Below, piece by piece: positions 23,531-64,000 of a DNA stretch of 64,000 nucleotides. The notes under the pieces were generated by a model. That model searched no databases. It had not been told where the DNA came from and was given only the letters and a program-made list of their open reading frames with translations. Position 1 is the first letter of the stretch, and every line of letters begins with the position of its first letter. Source of the stretch: Desulfarculus baarsii DSM 2075 (GTDB taxonomy: Bacteria; Desulfobacterota; Desulfarculia; Desulfarculales; Desulfarculaceae); NCBI RefSeq assembly GCF_000143965.1, contig NC_014365.1, forward strand, positions 2,197,501 to 2,261,500, written 5' to 3'. The position numbers were made by a program, and so were the translations under genes.

Positions 23531-23569
23531 GCCGCCGCCTCGCGCCAAGGGGCGGCGGCCACTTTTTTT
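23531..23569 (+). terminator. Intrinsic terminator facing right, no plus-strand gene before it
   Basis: GCCGCCGCC (23531-23539) pairs with GGCGGCGGC (23551-23559), followed by CAC and seven T. It points along the plus strand and overlaps the valS stop codon. No plus-strand CDS precedes it, so it either ends an unrecognised small RNA from the 23,380-23,530 gap or blocks antisense transcription into valS. Confidence 0.6.
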
Positions 23570-26213
23570 AGATGAAGCCGCGGATGCGCTCCAGGTTGGC
23601 CTGCAGTCGGATCATCTTGCTCTCCAACTCGGCCACCTTGGCCTTTTCCTTGTCGACCACCTCGAGCGGGGCCTTGGCCAAGAAGCCGTCGTTCAAGAGC
23701 TTTTTGCGGCTGGGGCCCACTTCCTTTTCCAGCTTGGCCAGCTCTTTGCGCAGCCGGGCCTCCTCGGCGGCAAAGTCTACCAGACCCTCCAGGGGCACGT
23801 AAAGGGTCACGCCGGGCAAGGCGATGCTGGCGGCCTTTTGCGGCGCGCCGCCCTCGCCCAGCCAGCCCAACTCGCTGATCTTGGCCAAGCCGACGATGGA
23901 GCCACGCTGGGCCTCCAGCATGGCCCGCGTGGCCGGCTCCGGCGCGGCCAGCACCAGCGGCACGGCCTTGGCCGGGCTGATGCCCATCTCGCCGCGGATG
24001 TTGCGCACGCCCGAGATCACATCCATCACCAGGCGCATGTCGGCCTCGGCGGCCTCGTCCAGCTCGTCGGGACGAGCCTTGGGCCAGACGGCCTTCATCA
24101 CGCTGCCCTCCGCGCCGGGCAGGCGTTGCCACAGCTCCTCGGTGACAAAGGGCATGAACGGATGCAACAGGCGGATCAACCGCGAAAAGACCTGGCGCAG
24201 CGTCGCCCTGGTGGCGGCCTGGCGGGCCGGGTCGGCGTCGTTGTAGAGCGGGCCCTTGATCAGCTCCAGATACCAGTCGCAGAACTCGTGCCAGGCGAAT
24301 TGATAGACCGCCCCGGCCGCGTCGTTGAAGCGATATTCATCGATGGCCAGGGCAGCCTCGTCGGCCACCCGACCCACCCGCGAGAGGATCCAGCGATCCT
24401 CCAACAACGGCTCCAGGCCCTCGGGGCGTTGGTGATCGCCCTCCAGGTGCATCAGCGTGAAGCGGGCGGCGTTCCAGATTTTGTTGACAAAGTTGCGATA
24501 GCCGGCGATGCGCTCCTCGCTGAGCTTGACGTCGCGGCCCTGGGCGGCGAAGGCGGCCAGGGTGAAGCGCACCGCGTCGGTGCCAAACTGGTCCATGACC
24601 ACCAGCGGGTCGATGACGTTGCCCTTGCTCTTGGACATCTTCTGGCCGTGCTCGTCGCGCACCAGGGCGTGGATGTAGACATCCTTGAAGGGCGCCTCAC
24701 CCATGAATTTCAGGCCCATCATCATCATGCGGGCCACCCAGAAAAACAATATGTCAAAGGCCGTGACCAGGCACGAGGTGGGATAAAACTTCTTCAGCTC
24801 GGCGGTCTGGTCGGGCCAGCCCATGGTCGAAAACGGCCAGAGGGCGCTGCTGAACCAGGTGTCCAACACGTCGGACTCGCGGCGCAATTGGTCCGCGCCG
24901 CAGGCCGGGCAGACGGTGGGATCCTGACGCGAGACGATCACCTGGCCGCATTGGCAATACCAGGCCGGGATGCGGTGTCCCCACCAGATCTGGCGGCTGA
25001 TGCACCAGTCGCGGATGCCGGTCATCCAGTCGTAGTAGGTCTTGGTCCATACTTCAGGCACGATGCGCGTGCGGCCGTCCTGCACGGCCTTCAGGGCCTC
25101 CTCGGCAAGGGGGCCCACCTTGACGAACCACTGTTTGCTGAGGATGGGCTCGACCATGGTGTGGCAACGATAGCAATGGCCGACGTTGTGCATGTGCTCG
25201 TCGCGCCGCTCCAACAGCCCCAGCGCCTCCAGGTCGGCCAGCACCTTTTCGCGGGCGGCGAAACGGTCCAGGCCCTGATAGGGCCCGCCCAGCTCGTTGA
25301 TGCGCGCGTCGTCGTCCATGACCTTGATCGAGGGCAGGCCGTGCTTGCGACCGATCATGAAGTCGTTGGGATCGTGGGCCGGGGTGACCTTGAGCGCGCC
25401 GGTGCCAAAGTCCGTGGCCACGTAACTATCGCGTATCACCGGAATTTCACGGTTGACCAGCGGCAGGACGACCACGTCGTCGGCCAGGTCTTGATAGCGC
25501 GGATCGGCGGGGTTGACGGCCACGGCCGTGTCGCCCAGCATGGTCTCGGGCCTGGTGGTGGCCACCACCAGGTAGCCCTTGCCGTTGCGGAAGGGATAGC
25601 GGATGTGATAAAGCCCGCCCTTGGTCTCCTCGTGCTCGGACTCCAGGTCGCTGAGGGCGGTGTGGCAACGCGGGCACCAGTTGATGATGTAGTCGCCGCG
25701 ATATATCAGGCCCTCTTCGTATAGCCGCACGAAGACCTCGCGCACGGCCCGGCTGAGGCCCTCGTCCATGGTGAAGCGCTCGCGCGACCAATCGCAAGAA
25801 GCGCCCAGGCGCTTGAGCTGATTGATGATCTGCCCGCCGCTTTCGGCCCGCCAGCGCCACACGCGCTCGATGAACTTTTCGCGGCCCAGGTCGTGGCGGT
25901 TCAGGCCCTCCTGGGCCAACTGGCGCTCGACCACGTTCTGGGTAGCGATGCCGGCGTGGTCGGTGCCGGGCATCCACAACACCTCCCAGCCGTTCATGCG
26001 CTTGAAGCGGCAGAGGATGTCTTGCAGGGTGTTGTTGAGGGCGTGGCCGATATGCAACTGGCCGGTGACGTTGGGCGGGGGGATGACGATGGAGTAGGCC
26101 GGGGCCGCGCTCTGCGGATCGGCCCTGAACAGGCCGTTTTCTTGCCAATATTCATACCACCGGGCCTCGACCTCGCGCGGCTCGTAGGATTTCGCCAGCT
26201 TGCCAGCGTCCAT
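23568..26213 (-). CDS. valS: Valyl-tRNA synthetase
   Basis: An 881-residue class I aminoacyl-tRNA synthetase. The HIGH motif is seen in PPPNVTGQLHIGHAL (about 46-60) and KMSKS in GQKMSKSKGNVIDP. The editing domain (TTRPETMLGDTAVAV) is present, as are Cys-rich zinc segments (WCPRC, CYRC, CQCG...CPACG). The C-terminal coiled coil (VDFAAEEARLRKELAKLEKEV) is typical of ValRS. The ATG at 26213 gives a normal N-terminus (GKLAKSYEPREVEARWY); the in-frame extension upstream crosses a terminator hairpin and is not conserved-looking. Confidence 0.98.
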   Translation of the reverse strand: MDAGKLAKSYEPREVEARWYEYWQENGLFRADPQSAAPAYSIVIPPPNVTGQLHIGHALNNTLQDILCRFKRMNGWEVLWMPGTDHAGIATQNVVERQLAQEGLNRHDLGREKFIERVWRWRAESGGQIINQLKRLGASCDWSRERFTMDEGLSRAVREVFVRLYEEGLIYRGDYIINWCPRCHTALSDLESEHEETKGGLYHIRYPFRNGKGYLVVATTRPETMLGDTAVAVNPADPRYQDLADDVVVLPLVNREIPVIRDSYVATDFGTGALKVTPAHDPNDFMIGRKHGLPSIKVMDDDARINELGGPYQGLDRFAAREKVLADLEALGLLERRDEHMHNVGHCYRCHTMVEPILSKQWFVKVGPLAEEALKAVQDGRTRIVPEVWTKTYYDWMTGIRDWCISRQIWWGHRIPAWYCQCGQVIVSRQDPTVCPACGADQLRRESDVLDTWFSSALWPFSTMGWPDQTAELKKFYPTSCLVTAFDILFFWVARMMMMGLKFMGEAPFKDVYIHALVRDEHGQKMSKSKGNVIDPLVVMDQFGTDAVRFTLAAFAAQGRDVKLSEERIAGYRNFVNKIWNAARFTLMHLEGDHQRPEGLEPLLEDRWILSRVGRVADEAALAIDEYRFNDAAGAVYQFAWHEFCDWYLELIKGPLYNDADPARQAATRATLRQVFSRLIRLLHPFMPFVTEELWQRLPGAEGSVMKAVWPKARPDELDEAAEADMRLVMDVISGVRNIRGEMGISPAKAVPLVLAAPEPATRAMLEAQRGSIVGLAKISELGWLGEGGAPQKAASIALPGVTLYVPLEGLVDFAAEEARLRKELAKLEKEVGPSRKKLLNDGFLAKAPLEVVDKEKAKVAELESKMIRLQANLERIRGFI

Positions 26214-26326: not shown

Positions 26327-27619
26327 TCAATCTACTACTTCGTCATCCAGATCGGGCGCATTGGCCTCGGCCTTGATGGCCTCGATCTCGGCGGCCACCT
26401 TTTCGGCGACCAGCTTGGGCACTATCTCGCCGATCAGCTTGCCCAGCATCTCACGGGCCACCCGCTCGAAGATCACCGCCGCCTCCAAGGGCTCCAGCGG
26501 CGCGGCGTCCACGCCCATGTCCTTGATCATGGCCGCGGCCTGGCCCACCAGCGCCGCGCTGGAAGCCGCCGGCTTTTCGGGCGGCGCGACCACGGCTTGG
26601 CGCGGGCGGCGCGGAGCCGCGGCCGCCGGCTGGGGCGGCTCGGGCGCGGGCTCTTTTTCCAATTCGGCCAGCAGCGCGTCCAGGTCGTCGTCGTCATCGG
26701 CGGCGGGCGCTGGCGCGGCCTTGGCCTTTGGCTTGGGCGCGGCGGCCGGGGCCGGGGCCGGCTTTTCAGGCGACGGCTGATTGTTGGCCCCCAAGTCGGC
26801 CAAGAGCGAATCGAGGTCGTCCTGGCCAAGCTCGGACTTCGCGGCGGCGGCCGGGGCCGGAGCCGGTTTTTCAGCCGGCGCAGCAGCGTCCAGTTCGTCC
26901 AAAAGGGCGTCGAGATCGTCTTGGCCAAGCTCGGACTTCGCGGCGGCGGCCGGGGCCGGAGCCGGTTTTTCAGCCGGCGCAGCAGCGTCCAGTTCGCCCA
27001 AAAGGGCGTCGAGATCGTCTTGGCCAAGCTCGGACTTCGCGGCGGCGGCCGGGGCCGGAGCCGGTTTTTCAGCCGGCGCAGCAGCGTCCAGTTCGCCCAA
27101 AAGGGCGTCGAGATCGTCTTGGCCAAGCTCGGACTTCGCGGCGGCGGCCGGGGCCGGGGCCGGTTTTTCAGCCGGCGGAGCAGCGTCCAGTTCGCCTAAA
27201 AGGGCGTCGAGATCGTCTTGGCCAAGTTCGGACTTCGCGGCGGCGGCCGGGGCCGGGGCCGGTTTTTCAGCCGGCGCAGCAGCGTCCAGTTCGCCCAAAA
27301 GGGCGTCGAGATCGTCTTGGCCAAGTTCGGACTTCGCGGCGGCGGCCGGGGCCGGGGCCGGTTTTTCAGCCGGCGCAGCGGCGTCGCCGCCAAGCTCGGC
27401 CAGCAGAGAGTCGAGGTCGTCGCCGGTGTCTTGGGCCGGGGCGGCGGCCGGGGCCGGCGAGCTTTTGGGCGCGGGCGCGTCGCCGCTCAGTTCGGCCAGC
27501 AGAGAGTCGAGATCGTCGCCGGCCAGCGGCGCTTGAGCCTGGGCTTGAGGTTTGTCGGCCACCTCTTCGACCAGATCTATGATCACCGCTCCGGGCGGGG
27601 GTCCGGCCTTTGCCGCCAA
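26327..27619 (-). CDS. Repeat protein with nine FliM-like 'QDDLDALL' peptides and a helical C-terminus
   Basis: A 430-residue acidic Pro/Ala-rich protein I cannot assign to a named family. Nine copies of DDLD(A/S)LL(x)(E/D)L lie between about residues 33 and 325, spaced by low-complexity linkers such as EKPAPAPAAAAK. Six units are near-identical 33-residue repeats. The core ELGQDDLDALL closely resembles the FliM N-terminal peptide SQAEIDALL that binds CheY-P. The C-terminal ~65 residues are predicted helical, with AREMLGKLIGEIVPKLVAEKV. The layout (disordered acidic/proline-rich region plus helical tail) resembles polar scaffold proteins such as PopZ. It starts at TTG, 5 nt after AGGAGG, just downstream of nfo. 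Role inferred only: multivalent docking scaffold. Confidence 0.75.
   Translation of the reverse strand: MAAKAGPPPGAVIIDLVEEVADKPQAQAQAPLAGDDLDSLLAELSGDAPAPKSSPAPAAAPAQDTGDDLDSLLAELGGDAAAPAEKPAPAPAAAAKSELGQDDLDALLGELDAAAPAEKPAPAPAAAAKSELGQDDLDALLGELDAAPPAEKPAPAPAAAAKSELGQDDLDALLGELDAAAPAEKPAPAPAAAAKSELGQDDLDALLGELDAAAPAEKPAPAPAAAAKSELGQDDLDALLDELDAAAPAEKPAPAPAAAAKSELGQDDLDSLLADLGANNQPSPEKPAPAPAAAPKPKAKAAPAPAADDDDDLDALLAELEKEPAPEPPQPAAAAPRRPRQAVVAPPEKPAASSAALVGQAAAMIKDMGVDAAPLEPLEAAVIFERVAREMLGKLIGEIVPKLVAEKVAAEIEAIKAEANAPDLDDEVVD
26823..27416. repeat. Six tandem 99-bp coding repeats
   Basis: Units begin near 26823, 26922, 27021, 27120, 27219 and 27318, each 99 bp (33 codons), and differ by only a few bases each. 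Identity at silent positions points to recent expansion or ongoing homogenisation, so copy number may vary between strains. Confidence 0.92.
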
Positions 27620-27666: not shown

Positions 27667-28539
27667 TCAAGCGGTCGGAGTCAACAAGCCGCCAGGGGCT
27701 TGGCCCAAGACAAGGCGCCGCAGGTAGAGCACGTTGCGCCGGTCGGCCCAGCGCGAGTCCTTGGGTGTCTCCATCACCGCCGCCGCCGCGGCCAGGCGCG
27801 GATCTTGGGCCAGGCCAGCCAGGCCAGCCCGGCCGATGCGCCCCCGGCCCAGATGGGCGTGAATGTCGCGCCCGCAGCCGCATGGCAATTTCATGTCATT
27901 GAAATGCCACAGCAATACACTTTCCAACCCCACCACGTCGTCGACTTGATCGACAAATGCGGCCGCGCCATCGGCGCTGGAGATATCGTATCCCGCGCCC
28001 CAGGCGTGGGCCGTGTCCAGGCAAACGGCGCAGGGCGCATCGCCCAGCAGGTCGAGCATGGCCGCCAGTTGCTCCAGCCGGCCGCCCAGCGCCCCGCCAG
28101 CCCCGCAGGTGTTTTCCAAAATCACTTTTGACTGACCGCCAGCCGCCGCCAGAGCCCGGGCCGCGCCCTGGGCCACGCGCTCCAGGCCCCAATCCAGGGG
28201 CCGAGCGCCCCGGCTGCCCGGATGCACCACCACACCGGCCGCGCCGATGGCCTGGGCCATGCGCAGCTGGTCGGTCAGGGCCTCGATGGACTTGCTCCAC
28301 AAGGCCTCGTCGGCCGCGGCAAGGTTGATCAGGTAAGGCGCGTGGATCACCACCGGGTCCAGCCCAGCCAGCGCGGCCCCGGCCCGGAAACGCGCCGTCT
28401 CCTCGGCGCTCCACGCCACGCGCCGCCACGTTCGCGGGCTGCCGGCGAATATCTGCAGGCAATCAAGGCCCAGTCGTCGGGCCATCTCCACGGCATTGGC
28501 CGCGTCGCGGGCCGTGGAAAGATGCAGCCCGATGCGCAT
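27667..28539 (-). CDS. nfo: Endonuclease IV (AP endonuclease)
   Basis: A 290-residue TIM-barrel enzyme of base-excision repair that nicks DNA 5' to abasic sites using three zinc ions. The zinc ligands appear in order: HAPYLINLA (about 66-74), VVVHPGS (about 103-109), ILENTCGAG, VCLDTAHAWGAGYD, HFNDMKLPCG, DIHAHLGRG (D-x-H metal pair) and VMETPKD near the C-terminus. The DRHxHIG motif of E. coli is DIHAHLG here; metal ligands are kept. The ATG follows GGAGG by 4 nt. It diverges from copZ. Confidence 0.94.
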   Translation of the reverse strand: MRIGLHLSTARDAANAVEMARRLGLDCLQIFAGSPRTWRRVAWSAEETARFRAGAALAGLDPVVIHAPYLINLAAADEALWSKSIEALTDQLRMAQAIGAAGVVVHPGSRGARPLDWGLERVAQGAARALAAAGGQSKVILENTCGAGGALGGRLEQLAAMLDLLGDAPCAVCLDTAHAWGAGYDISSADGAAAFVDQVDDVVGLESVLLWHFNDMKLPCGCGRDIHAHLGRGRIGRAGLAGLAQDPRLAAAAAVMETPKDSRWADRRNVLYLRRLVLGQAPGGLLTPTA

Positions 28540-28671: not shown

Positions 28672-28875
28672 ATGAACGAAAAAACAGTCAATATTCCTTC
28701 CATATCCTGCGGACATTGCCTGGCGGCGGTCAAACGCGAGGCCGGCGAGGTCAAGGGCGTAAGCTCCGTCGAAGGCGACGTGAGCACCAAAGACGTAACC
28801 ATCAAGTGGGACGCGCCAGCCACCTGGGAACAGATCGAAGCCCAGCTCAAGGACGCCGGCTACCCACCTCAATGA
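28672..28875 (+). CDS. copZ: Copper chaperone, heavy-metal-associated domain (CopZ type)
   Basis: A 67-residue single HMA domain with the metal-binding CGHC motif at residues 13-16 ([14 protein letters not shown]). Such chaperones carry Cu(I) in the cytosol and deliver it to the P-type ATPase. Its stop overlaps the first possible ATG of copA, confirming an operon. Confidence 0.92.
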
Positions 28876-28892
28876 CGCCTCAAGGAGCTGCT

Positions 28893-31346
28893 TTGGCCGA
28901 AAAATCCATCGATATGCCGGTGGTGGGCATGACCTGCGCCCGCTGCGCGGCCAACGTCGAGCGCGTCCTGGCCAAAAAGCTGCCTGGCGTCAGCCTGGCC
29001 GAAGTCAACTTCGCCGCCGAGACTGTCCACGTGGTCTACGACCCGGAGCAAGTCGGCCCGGAGCAAATGGCCAAGGCAGTCGAGGATGCGGGTTACAAGC
29101 TGATCCTGCCCGCGCCGACGCGCCGGGTGGAGTTGCCGGTGGTGGGCATGAGCTGCGCCCGCTGCGCGGCCAACGTCGAGCGCGTCCTGGCCAAAAAAAC
29201 GCCCGGCGTCAGCCTGGCCCAGGTCAACTTCGCCGCCGAAACCGTGGCCGTGGAGTACGATCCGGCGCAAACCAGCCTGGAGCGCATGGCCGGCGCCGTG
29301 CGCGAGGCCGGCTTCGAGCTGATCCTGCCCGTTGACGGCGAGGACCAAACCGACGCCGAACAACAGGCCCGCGCCCAGGAACTGGCCGCCCAAAAACGCT
29401 TTTTCTGGGTGGGCGTGGCCTTCACCCTGCCCCTTTTCATCCTGCACATGGGCCACGCCTTTCATGTTTTCGGGGCGTGGGCGGTCTCGCCGTGGGCCGG
29501 CTGGCTGTCGCTGGCCCTGGCCACGCCGGTGCAATTTTACACCGGCGGCGGTTTTTACGTGGGCGGCTGGAAGAGCCTGCGGGCCGGCGCGGCCAACATG
29601 GACGTGCTGGTGGCCCTGGGCGCTTCGGCGGCCTATTTTTATTCGGTGGCCGCGCTGATCTTCCCGGGCCTGGGCCATCAACTTTATTTCGAAACATCGG
29701 CCATGATCATCACGCTGATCAAGCTGGGCAAGCTCTTGGAGGCCAAGGCCAAGGGCCAGGCCGGCGCGGCCATCCGCAAGCTGATGGATCTGGCCCCCAA
29801 AATGGCCACGCTGCTGGGCGACGACGGCGCGGAAAAAACCGTGCCGGCCCAGTCGGTGCGGCCGGGTCAGGTGGTTTTGGTGCGGCCCGGCGAGGCCATC
29901 CCCGTCGACGGCGTGGTCGTCGGCGGTGAGTCGGCCGTCAACGAAGCGCTGATGACCGGCGAATCCATGCCCGTGGACAAAAAGCAGGGCGACCAGGTCT
30001 ATGGGGCCACGGTCAACCAGCAGGGCATGCTCAAGGTGCGGGCCACCGGCGTGGGCGCCGATACGGCCCTGGCCCAGATCATCCGCCTGGTGCGTCAGGC
30101 CCAGGGCTCCAAGGCCCCCATCCAACGCCTGGCCGACAAGGTGGCGGCGGTGTTCGTGCCGGCCATCATCTGCATCGCCCTGGCCACGCTGGCCGCCTGG
30201 TGGCTGATCGACGGCCTGTTCGTGCCGGCCATGGTCCGCATGACGGCCGTGTTGGTCATCGCCTGCCCCTGCGCCCTGGGCCTGGCCACGCCCACGGCGA
30301 TCATGGTCGGCTCGGGCAAGGGCGCGACGATGGGCGTATTGTTCAAAAACAGCGAGGCCCTGGAGACGGCCCACCGTGTCTCGGTGGTCATGTTCGACAA
30401 GACCGGCACCATCACCAAGGGCCAACCCCGCTTGACCGACTGGATCGCCCTGGGCGACCACGGCGGCGAGGCCCTGACCATGGCCGCCGCCGCCGAAAAC
30501 GCCTCGGAGCACCCCGTGGCCAAGGCCGTGGCCAGCGGCGCGCGGGAAAGGGGCGTGGCCCCGCCCGAAGCCGAGCGTTTCGAGGCGCTGGCCGGCTTTG
30601 GCGTGCGGGCGGTGGTCCAGGGCCGTGAAGTGCTGGTGGGCAAGCCGTCGTGGATCGCCAGCCAGGGCCTGGCCGACGCCGCCGTCATGGCCAAGGTCGA
30701 CGAATTGGCCGATCAGGGCAAAACAGTGATGATCGTGGTCATCGAAGGCAAGGCGGCCGGGTTGCTGGCCGTGGCCGACGAGGAAAAGCCCGATGCGGCC
30801 AAGGCCATCGCCAAGCTGAAAAACATGGGCCTGGAGACGATCATGCTCACCGGCGACAACCAGCGGGCCGCCGCGGCCATCGCGGCCAAGGTGGGCATCC
30901 AGCGGGTGGTGGCCGAGGTGCTGCCCGACAAAAAAGAAGAGGCCGTGCGTAAAGCCCAGGCCGACGGCCGATTGGTGGCCATGGTCGGCGACGGCGTCAA
31001 CGACGCCCCGGCCCTGGCCCGGGCCGACCTGGGCATGGCCATCGGCACCGGGGCCGACGTGGCCATGGAGGCCTCGGACGTGACGCTGGTCGGCGGCGAC
31101 CTGGCCGGCGTGCCGCGCAGCATCGCCCTTTCGCGGGCCACAATGCGCACGATCCGGCAAAATCTGTTTTGGGCCTTCTTTTATAATGTGCTATTGGTGC
31201 CCATAGCCGCCGGCGCGGCCCAACCGTTGACGTGGCTGCCGGATTTCATCCGCAACCTGCATCCGGCCATGGCCGCCGGAGCCATGGCGTTTTCCAGCGT
31301 CACGGTGGTGTTCAACAGCTTGCGCCTGGGCAGGCGTCGCCTGTGA
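28893..31346 (+). CDS. copA: Cu(+)-exporting P1B-type ATPase with duplicated HMA domains
   Basis: An 817-residue P1B-1 copper exporter in the inner membrane. Two N-terminal HMA domains ([20 protein letters not shown] and [20 protein letters not shown]) lie 74 residues apart. Then come TM helices, the TGES phosphatase motif, the CPC ion site in [11 protein letters not shown], the phosphorylation site DKTGTITKG, the HP dipeptide (ASEHPVAKA) and [12 protein letters not shown]7 (YN) and TM8 (SS) fit Cu(I). The TTG at 28893 follows AAGGAG by 5 nt; the ATG at 28872 overlaps the copZ stop and is the alternative. Confidence 0.96.
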
Positions 31347-61479: not shown

Positions 61480-64000
61480 CTAGAAGGCCACGTTCAGACC
61501 GGCGGTGACGGCCTGGGCGCTCCACGACGACGATTGCAGGATCGTGCCTTCGACGAACAACGAAAACGTCGGACCAAAGGCGGCTGAGAGGCCCAGGCCG
61601 GCCTCGAGCATGTCGGCGGCCGGCTCCAGGCCCTCGACGCTGATGGGCGCGGAGCCGTAGTCACGGAAGGTCGCCTGGACCGTCCGGGCGTCGGCGTCAA
61701 AATTGTGCAGCCAGTTGACATAGCCGCCGGGGCTGAGCGTCGCCGCGCCGCAGGCCCAGTCGTAGGCCGCCCGCGCGCCCAGACGCGAGCCCAGGTAGTT
61801 CTCGCTGCGATCCTTGACCCGCAAGCTCATCAGCCCGGCTCCCGATTCGTCAAAGGCGTCTTCCCGCAGGTTGACGTACTCCAGCGAGGCCGTCGGGCCC
61901 ACGCGCCAGCCGGCCAGCAGCCAGTCGTGGCCGCCGCCCAGGCGGGCCAGCCATGTCTGGCCGTCGAAGTCGGCGTTGGCCTTGACGCCCTGGCCGTCCA
62001 ACCAACTCTGGCGCTTGGCGCTGTTGTCGTAAGCGCCGTAGCTGAAGGCCGCGTTGAGGTAAAAGGCCTCCAGATCGGCCGAAGCGTAGAGCCCGATGTT
62101 GAGCGCGCGTTGATCGCCTTCGTGGCCGGCCATGCTCCAGTCGATGTTGGTCACGCTGCTGGCCATGGCCAAGCCGGTGCTCAGCCAGGGCAAGACACGG
62201 CCGTCCACGCCGACGATGGCCCCACCGCTGCCCAGGCGATAGCCCAAGTGGCCGCTGTCACCGCTCTGGTTGGACCAGTCGCCCAGGGCCCGGGCCCAGG
62301 CCGACCAGCCACCGCCGGCCTGGCCGTTGGCGCTGAGCTCCTGGGAGGCGGCCTGGGTCGGGCCGGACGCGCCGGCCGCCTGGTTGGCGGCGCTGCGGGC
62401 CGTCAGCGAGCGCCACCACAGCATGCGATCGAAGGTGCGGGCCCCGCTCAGGCTGGCGGCGCTGAAGGCGTCGTACATCTCGGGATTGGCCGCCTCCAGC
62501 GTCTGGCGGATCTGGCTCAGGTCGTAGCTCCAGTCCATGGCCAGAAGCAACTGGGTCATTTGATCTTGCCGAGCCTGGGCCAGGGGCACGATGGCGTCCA
62601 GGGCCGCGCCCACGCCCTTTTGGCCCGGGGTGAGCGCCAGCGAGGCGAAGCTGACGCGCGCGATGTCCAGACTGACGCTATCGGCGTGGTAGACCGGCGT
62701 GAGGCTGACGGTCTGGGACGTGGGCAGGCCCTGCAGGCCCAGGAACGAGCCTTGCACCGCGCCGGCGCTGATGATCGTCCAGCTCTGGCCGTTGGTGTAG
62801 AGCGCCTGGGGCAGGCTGACCTGGGCATAGCCGTCGAGGTAGGCCACGCCGTTGTTGAGGATCCTGACCAGATCGCAGGCCCCGCTGGGGTCCAGCTCGA
62901 TGAGCAGCACGCCATCGCTGGCGTTGTGGTAGTCGCCGATGACGGTCATGGTCCCGATGCTGTTGCCGGGCGAGAACCAGCCGTGGTTGACCACGTTGCC
63001 CAAGATGGCCCCGACGCCGCCCAGGAAGCCGCCGGGGTTGATCGTCACCAGGCGGCTATCCAACGTGCCGTTGATGAAGGCCGAGCCGCTGAGGGTGAAC
63101 GTCGGCGCGCCGATGGTCTGGTCATCGGGCAGGGTGAGCCTGCCACGGATATAGAGGCTGCTGGTGAACTCCCAGTCGTTGATGAAGGTGGCGTTGCCCG
63201 TGCCGTCGTAGCTGATGCGCTCGAAATCGAAGAACTTGTCGGCGTCGAATACGCCCGAGCCGACCAGGGACAGCGAGTCCACGCCGCTCTGGCCGGAGAC
63301 GCCGCTGCCCACCGAGCTGCCACCGGAATAGATCACGGTGTCGTCACCGTCGCCGGCCAGAACCCAACCGCCCACCGAGCCGCCCAGCAGGTGGATGACG
63401 TCGTCGCCGTCGCCGGACCAGATCGATTCACCCACGACGCCGTAGTTGAAGATCACGTTGCCAGTGCTGGTCGCGTTCCCGCCGCGGTCGTCGCTGCCGC
63501 GGATGGAGCCCTGCACCGTGCCGTAGTTGTAAATATGATTGCCGCCGCCGCTGGTGTCCATGCCGGCGTTGACGCCGCCGTAGACGCTGCCCAACACCGT
63601 CCCGTAGTTGGCGATGTAATTGTCGCCGCCGCTGGTGTTCGCGCCGTAGTTGAAGCTGCCGTGGATGCTGCCGCTCACCGTGCCGTAGTTGTAGATTTGG
63701 TTGTCGCCGCCGCTGGAGCCCACGCCGTCGTTGGCCGAGCCGTAGATGTCGGTGAGCACCAGGCCGCCGGCGTAGTTGTAGATGGTGTTTTCGCCGCCCG
63801 ACGAACCGTCGCCGATGTTCCACGAGCCGTCGATGTAGTCGGCTTGGCCGGTGTTTTCGATGCTGTTTTCGCCACCGCTGGCGTTCGCGCCCTGGTTGTA
63901 GCTGCCCAGGATGGAGTCGCCCACCGCGCTGGTGTTGTAGATTTGGTTTTCGCCGCCGCTGGAGCCCGCGCCGACATTGGCGCTGCCGCAGAGGTTGTAT
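61480..64000 (-). CDS. Autotransporter (type Va) with tandem repeat passenger, N-terminus outside window
   Basis: The last ~840 residues of an autotransporter; the frame stays open to the right edge, so the N-terminus and signal peptide are missing. The passenger starts with ~27-residue repeats built on IYNYGTV-x-GSI-x-GS-x-N-x-G-x-xTSGGDN, six to eight visible, which should form a beta-helix. A non-repeat segment follows, then a pertactin-like stem (GGFLGGVGAILGNVVNHGWFSPGNSIGTM). The C-terminal ~280 residues form the outer-membrane beta barrel, ending GLNVAF with terminal Phe. It is a surface adhesin or enzyme; no protease triad is seen in this part. Confidence 0.9.
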   Translation of the reverse strand, partial: YNLCGSANVGAGSSGGENQIYNTSAVGDSILGSYNQGANASGGENSIENTGQADYIDGSWNIGDGSSGGENTIYNYAGGLVLTDIYGSANDGVGSSGGDNQIYNYGTVSGSIHGSFNYGANTSGGDNYIANYGTVLGSVYGGVNAGMDTSGGGNHIYNYGTVQGSIRGSDDRGGNATSTGNVIFNYGVVGESIWSGDGDDVIHLLGGSVGGWVLAGDGDDTVIYSGGSSVGSGVSGQSGVDSLSLVGSGVFDADKFFDFERISYDGTGNATFINDWEFTSSLYIRGRLTLPDDQTIGAPTFTLSGSAFINGTLDSRLVTINPGGFLGGVGAILGNVVNHGWFSPGNSIGTMTVIGDYHNASDGVLLIELDPSGACDLVRILNNGVAYLDGYAQVSLPQALYTNGQSWTIISAGAVQGSFLGLQGLPTSQTVSLTPVYHADSVSLDIARVSFASLALTPGQKGVGAALDAIVPLAQARQDQMTQLLLAMDWSYDLSQIRQTLEAANPEMYDAFSAASLSGARTFDRMLWWRSLTARSAANQAAGASGPTQAASQELSANGQAGGGWSAWARALGDWSNQSGDSGHLGYRLGSGGAIVGVDGRVLPWLSTGLAMASSVTNIDWSMAGHEGDQRALNIGLYASADLEAFYLNAAFSYGAYDNSAKRQSWLDGQGVKANADFDGQTWLARLGGGHDWLLAGWRVGPTASLEYVNLREDAFDESGAGLMSLRVKDRSENYLGSRLGARAAYDWACGAATLSPGGYVNWLHNFDADARTVQATFRDYGSAPISVEGLEPAADMLEAGLGLSAAFGPTFSLFVEGTILQSSSWSAQAVTAGLNVAF

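Follow-up and report, generated by a model that had tools for sequence, protein, structure and literature searches.

What is the function of a protein that strings nine FliM-like peptides along one chain? Its gene lies in the window, as we call the whole 64,000-nucleotide stretch of the Desulfarculus baarsii DSM 2075 genome analysed here, and a sequence-only reading had proposed that the product is a multivalent scaffold for response regulators. The gene is single-copy in the D. baarsii genome (3,655,731 bases), and GGAGGAG precedes its TTG start (27617–27619). The gene, its parts and its flanking genes are as follows:

26327..27619, minus strand: PopZ-type scaffold gene, 430 amino acids, TTG start
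27554..27589, minus strand: N-terminal motif AVIIDLVEEVAD, residues 11–22, with counterparts in relatives and PopZ linkers
26660..27520, minus strand: Pro/Ala/Asp-rich chain with nine DDLD[A/S]LL helices, residues 34–320
26519..26566, minus strand: short predicted helix preceding the C-terminal domain, residues 352–367
26363..26491, minus strand: C-terminal helical domain, residues 377–419, counterpart of PopZ H3–H4
26330..26338, minus strand: C-terminal tail VVD, kept in close orthologues
23568..26213, minus strand: valS (valyl-tRNA synthetase), 113 bp downstream, a conserved neighbour
27667..28539, minus strand: upstream neighbour, which from its sequence we take to be endonuclease IV-like

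Nine repeats and a helical C terminus had been claimed, and both were confirmed by mapping and prediction. The DDLD[A/S]LL cores are found at residues 35, 67, 102, 135, 168, 201, 234, 267 and 311; six of the cores follow one another at exactly 33 residues, and the remaining spacings are 32, 35 and 44. One repeat, read from the window protein, is ELGQDDLDALLGEL, and the repeat peptide is AKSELGQDDLDALLGELDAA. The underlying DNA forms a 99-bp tandem array of 5.8 copies with 97% matches (26811–27385), accompanied by a diverged 96-bp pair. AlphaFold, run on the single sequence, gave low confidence over the whole protein (mean pLDDT 53); in this model each of the nine repeats bears a short helix, as does the N-terminal motif, and longer helices are predicted at residues 352–367 and 377–419. 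When the C-terminal fragment was predicted alone, a helix spanned residues 38–80 of its 91, with a pLDDT of 91–96 in the mid-part. A search of the PDB with the C-terminal profile returned weak, unrelated helices only, and one with a single repeat returned no match.

Tandem repeats also occur elsewhere in the window. The copper-type P-type ATPase at 28716–31346 carries two near-identical heavy-metal-binding domains, encoded by a 219-bp tandem repeat at 28915–29331, and is preceded by a stand-alone 67-residue domain at 28672–28875. An autotransporter-like protein (61480–63999), which extends past the end of the window, contains 27-residue SGGDNxIYNYGTV repeats (an 81-bp tandem repeat).

A scan of genome contigs with the single protein found no relatives. 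Searches of related genomes identified orthologues with the N-terminal motif, repeats and C-terminal helix in about ten genomes, so the ORF is not a chance frame. Their common layout begins with PPPGxEIIDLVEVVEE, continues as a linker rich in acidic residues and Pro, along which the DDLDALLxEL helices lie, and leads into a tail like ARAIFERVAREVIERLVGEMVPKLVAEQVEREIEAIKRQ; in close orthologues VVD (VVE once) then stands at the very C terminus after a variable spacer. The window protein's AVIIDLVEEVAD corresponds to EIIDLVEVVEE in these relatives, and its equivalent in the linkers of PopZ is DVLELTEVVEE. In nearly all genomes valS directly follows the orthologue; in one (G005) the two are on separate contigs. 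A TTG start with a ribosome-binding site was read directly in seven of the ten orthologues, and in the remaining three TTG is the most probable start (compared in L003–L007 and L021, also L011, L149 and L276); possibly this conserved start limits how much scaffold is made. Domain scans with Pfam and NCBIfam were of little help. Pup (PF05639) matched residues 219–244 above the cut-off (E 1.2e-8), a match that we judged compositional and rejected as an identity for the repeats, and that is a trap for automatic annotation; a match to Slr1339, below the cut-off, was rejected as spurious.

We traced the likeness of the repeats to the FliM peptide through the genome and its relatives. The FliM of D. 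baarsii itself starts MSKILTQDEVDALLKG, and the repeats match the peptide pattern LxQ[DE]ExDALL, with Leu for Ile/Val. Searched at the codon level, Q[DE][DE]hDxLL had seven sites in 3.66 Mb, six within the scaffold gene and one at the FliM N terminus, and the reversed codon pattern, used as a control, had none. Within this genome the core is thus shared by the scaffold gene and FliM only. Including D. baarsii, nine genomes have both FliM and the scaffold, and FliM-like cores are present in all nine (1–9 each), one of these orthologues being a fragment and another broken by a sequence gap. The core degenerates in relatives that lack FliM: four such genomes keep LxxLLxxL repeats, and 0 of their 12 repeats have the FliM-like core. 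All four belong to a single genus, so the contrast counts as one event, and the pattern used for the core had been modelled on the flagellate form. The evidence, which also includes the receiver domains carried by many homologues at the valS locus, is good but circumstantial, and the repeats plausibly dock receivers. The stand-alone CheY (41397) and CheY-TPR protein (41875) noted earlier in the window are both real receivers, though they lie 14 kb from the scaffold gene. The C-terminal peptide of CheZ is probably similar. That peptide is another CheY ligand, and a CheZ–peptide complex is mentioned in PMC9659070. There is also precedent for receiver capture by a PopZ-type hub: phosphorylation controls the binding of CpdR, a receiver, to the N-terminal hub of PopZ (PMC11519897).

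The gene also shares its position with popZ, which encodes the cell-pole organiser of Caulobacter. In Caulobacter and Agrobacterium valS comes immediately after popZ (PMC5686542), and this order was seen in 79 of the 80 alphaproteobacterial loci that we fetched. We compared the C-terminal domain of the Desulfobacterota proteins, as a close family and as a broad set, with the oligomerisation domain of PopZ, represented by 59 non-redundant PopZ tails, using hhalign. The close family aligned at 85.9% (score 27.1) and the broad set at 95.1% (score 31.9); full column shuffles peaked at a score of 17.0, and shuffles that keep the hydrophobic pattern reached the observed score in 2 of 150 cases for the close family and in 0 of 150 for the broad set. 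When HMMs of the Desulfobacterota domain were run against 6,130 alphaproteobacterial ORFs, the top 50 hits were all PopZ. Pattern-keeping shuffled HMMs also favoured PopZ (a mean of 17–29 of the top 50), so part of this signal is composition. At E<0.01 the broad set found 20 PopZ proteins, as against at most two from the pattern-keeping shuffled HMMs, and the best E-value that the close family reached by itself barely beat the best shuffle.

The linker provided a second line of evidence. The motif [DE][VIL][VILM][DEN]L[TVLAISE][DENQ] was present in 25 of 38 Desulfobacterota proteins (0.6 expected) and in 74 of 113 PopZ proteins (0.2 expected); the window protein reads AVIIDLVE, with its first acidic residue replaced, and is no strict match. 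Taken together, the profile comparison, the linker motif and the shared valS locus make common descent of the window-protein family and PopZ likely. Nothing in the D. baarsii genome matched the Pfam family DUF2497 (PF10691) at E≤10, the window protein did not match it in the Pfam and NCBIfam scan, and by sequence comparison the client-binding helix H1 of PopZ (of the EPTMEEILASIRRIISED type) is absent from the N terminus of the window protein; the protein is therefore a distant PopZ-type relative and not PopZ. Of the earlier proposal of a hub that oligomerises as PopZ does, the scaffold half is well supported by homology, the valS locus and the linker motif, evidence that a sequence-only reading could not have had, and the protein would probably assemble.

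We also surveyed the locus across the phylum in an unbiased way. We found valS in 140 of 148 genomes and took the upstream stretch from 80. An iterated HMM search of ORFs ending no more than 350 nt from valS detected the helical C-terminal domain, that of residues 377–419 in the window protein, just upstream of valS in 37 of the 80; E-values were calculated for a database size of 100 sequences, and a few of the weakest hits among the 37 are borderline. More distant homologues, spread phylum-wide, share a similar C-terminal domain and are likewise followed by valS, and several start with a CheY-like receiver. Of 38 proteins examined, approximately 17 have such a RomR-like N terminus, as flagged by a text pattern. 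None of the 17 has the repeats. We give little weight to mutual exclusion of repeats and a cis receiver, since the repeats belong to one order. In several other Desulfobacterota (L150–L152, L173, L191, L194 and L223) another conserved family occupies the position upstream of valS; it ends in VCDFIAGMTDRYAxxLYxxIFxPxPW, an ending by which it resembles a dGTPase-like protein.

The receiver-bearing proteins upstream of valS end in sequences such as IERIAWEVVPDLAENIIREEVRRLK. RomR consists of a receiver, a disordered linker and the helical, Glu-rich RomR-C with an invariant Trp and Pro, which was described as non-homologous to characterised domains (PMC3441718); oligomerisation requires RomR-C, which also suffices for it, and without RomR-C polar localisation fails (PMC10329633). 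That the receiver-bearing proteins fit this published description is a lead to RomR. The distant homologues have both Trp and Pro, and the window protein has the Pro without the Trp.

These observations are best accommodated, with slightly better than even probability, if the window protein is a hub of the PopZ type, distantly related to PopZ, and its repeats are docking sites for receivers. This reading builds on what the computation established: the anatomy of the protein, its conservation, the shared locus, the link to PopZ through domain and linker motif, and the near-exclusive sharing of the core with FliM. The C-terminal helices would join copies of the protein into multimers, probably at a cell pole, and the long Pro/Ala/acidic linker would project its client-binding elements. 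In Desulfarculales these elements would be short amphipathic helices, in arrays of as many as nine, that imitate the FliM N-terminal peptide, such that the assembly could hold many receiver domains near the pole. Phosphorylated CheY is the first candidate, and binding may depend on phosphorylation; other lineages carry a receiver in cis at the same locus upstream of valS. More tentatively, and well short of an even chance, we can picture a superfamily of PopZ/RomR-like pole organisers encoded upstream of valS in Alphaproteobacteria and Desulfobacterota, with receivers either fused in cis or, in Desulfarculales, caught in trans by a FliM-mimicking array; the window protein would then gather phosphorylated CheY as a multivalent hub at the pole.

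The strongest competitor keeps the PopZ-like hub and changes its clients. Its repeats would bind ParA/ParB, chemoreceptor-array, flagellar or division proteins in the manner of PopZ H1, and their likeness to FliM would reflect convergent evolution of a helix that is short, acidic and amphipathic. PopZ H1 has at least 11 binding partners, and the persistence of diverged repeats in FliM-less relatives implies some use without flagellar CheY. We nevertheless regard this as unlikely, as the FliM match spans LxQDxxDALL, is unique in the genome and is lost where FliM is lost.

Two further explanations are considerably less probable. The window protein could be a polarity regulator of the RomR type that has no receiver, its C-terminal domain serving the MglA/MglB pathway as RomR-C does. 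The oligomerisation and polar targeting of RomR-C and the Trp and Pro of the receiver-bearing homologues speak for such a kinship, but Response_reg had no match in the window protein, its C-terminal domain contains no Trp and no Roadblock/LC7 (MglB) protein was found in the D. baarsii genome; MglA/MglB polarity is accordingly disfavoured as the host pathway, and we consider this explanation improbable. Slightly less probable still is a low-complexity protein of no specific function, with repeats produced by slippage of the 99-bp unit and a compositional similarity to PopZ. The near-identity of the units (97%), the compositional share of the HMM signal and the spurious Pup match, which shows how such a sequence misleads, would fit this account, but the N-terminal motif, C-terminal domain, start codon and valS neighbour are all conserved across genera.

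The earlier statement that no system of this design has been described needs correcting: the overall design is already PopZ/RomR-like, and the new part is the repeat array. PopZ is known from studies in alphaproteobacteria; among open-licence papers, our searches turned up none that reports PopZ from Desulfobacterota or a domain link between PopZ and RomR. With locus, domain and linker motif in common, hubs of the PopZ type would reach into another phylum and be tied to RomR-like proteins that bear a receiver, so that the origin of bacterial pole organisers becomes testable. If the repeats bind CheY, they would constitute a natural multivalent scaffold for collecting receivers.

Three known systems frame the protein. 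It resembles PopZ in having its gene directly upstream of valS, a disordered linker that is rich in Pro and acidic residues and contains a [DE][VI][IL][DE]L[TV][DE] motif, and a C-terminal helical domain related to PopZ H3–H4 by profile comparison; it differs in coming from another phylum than the alphaproteobacterial PopZ and in carrying nine FliM-like helices instead of the EPTMEEILASIRRIISED N-terminal helix. With RomR of Myxococcus it shares, by description, a disordered linker and a helical, Glu-containing C-terminal domain, and a receiver like that of RomR is present in some of its homologues at the valS locus, whereas the window protein lacks the N-terminal receiver of RomR. The likeness to FliM lies in the repeat itself, LGQDDLDALL as compared with LTQDEVDALL in the genome's own FliM, each a short amphipathic helix like the CheY-binding N-terminal peptide. 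FliM has Ile or Val where the repeats have Leu, and the window protein offers this peptide in nine copies on a single chain, without a FliM domain.
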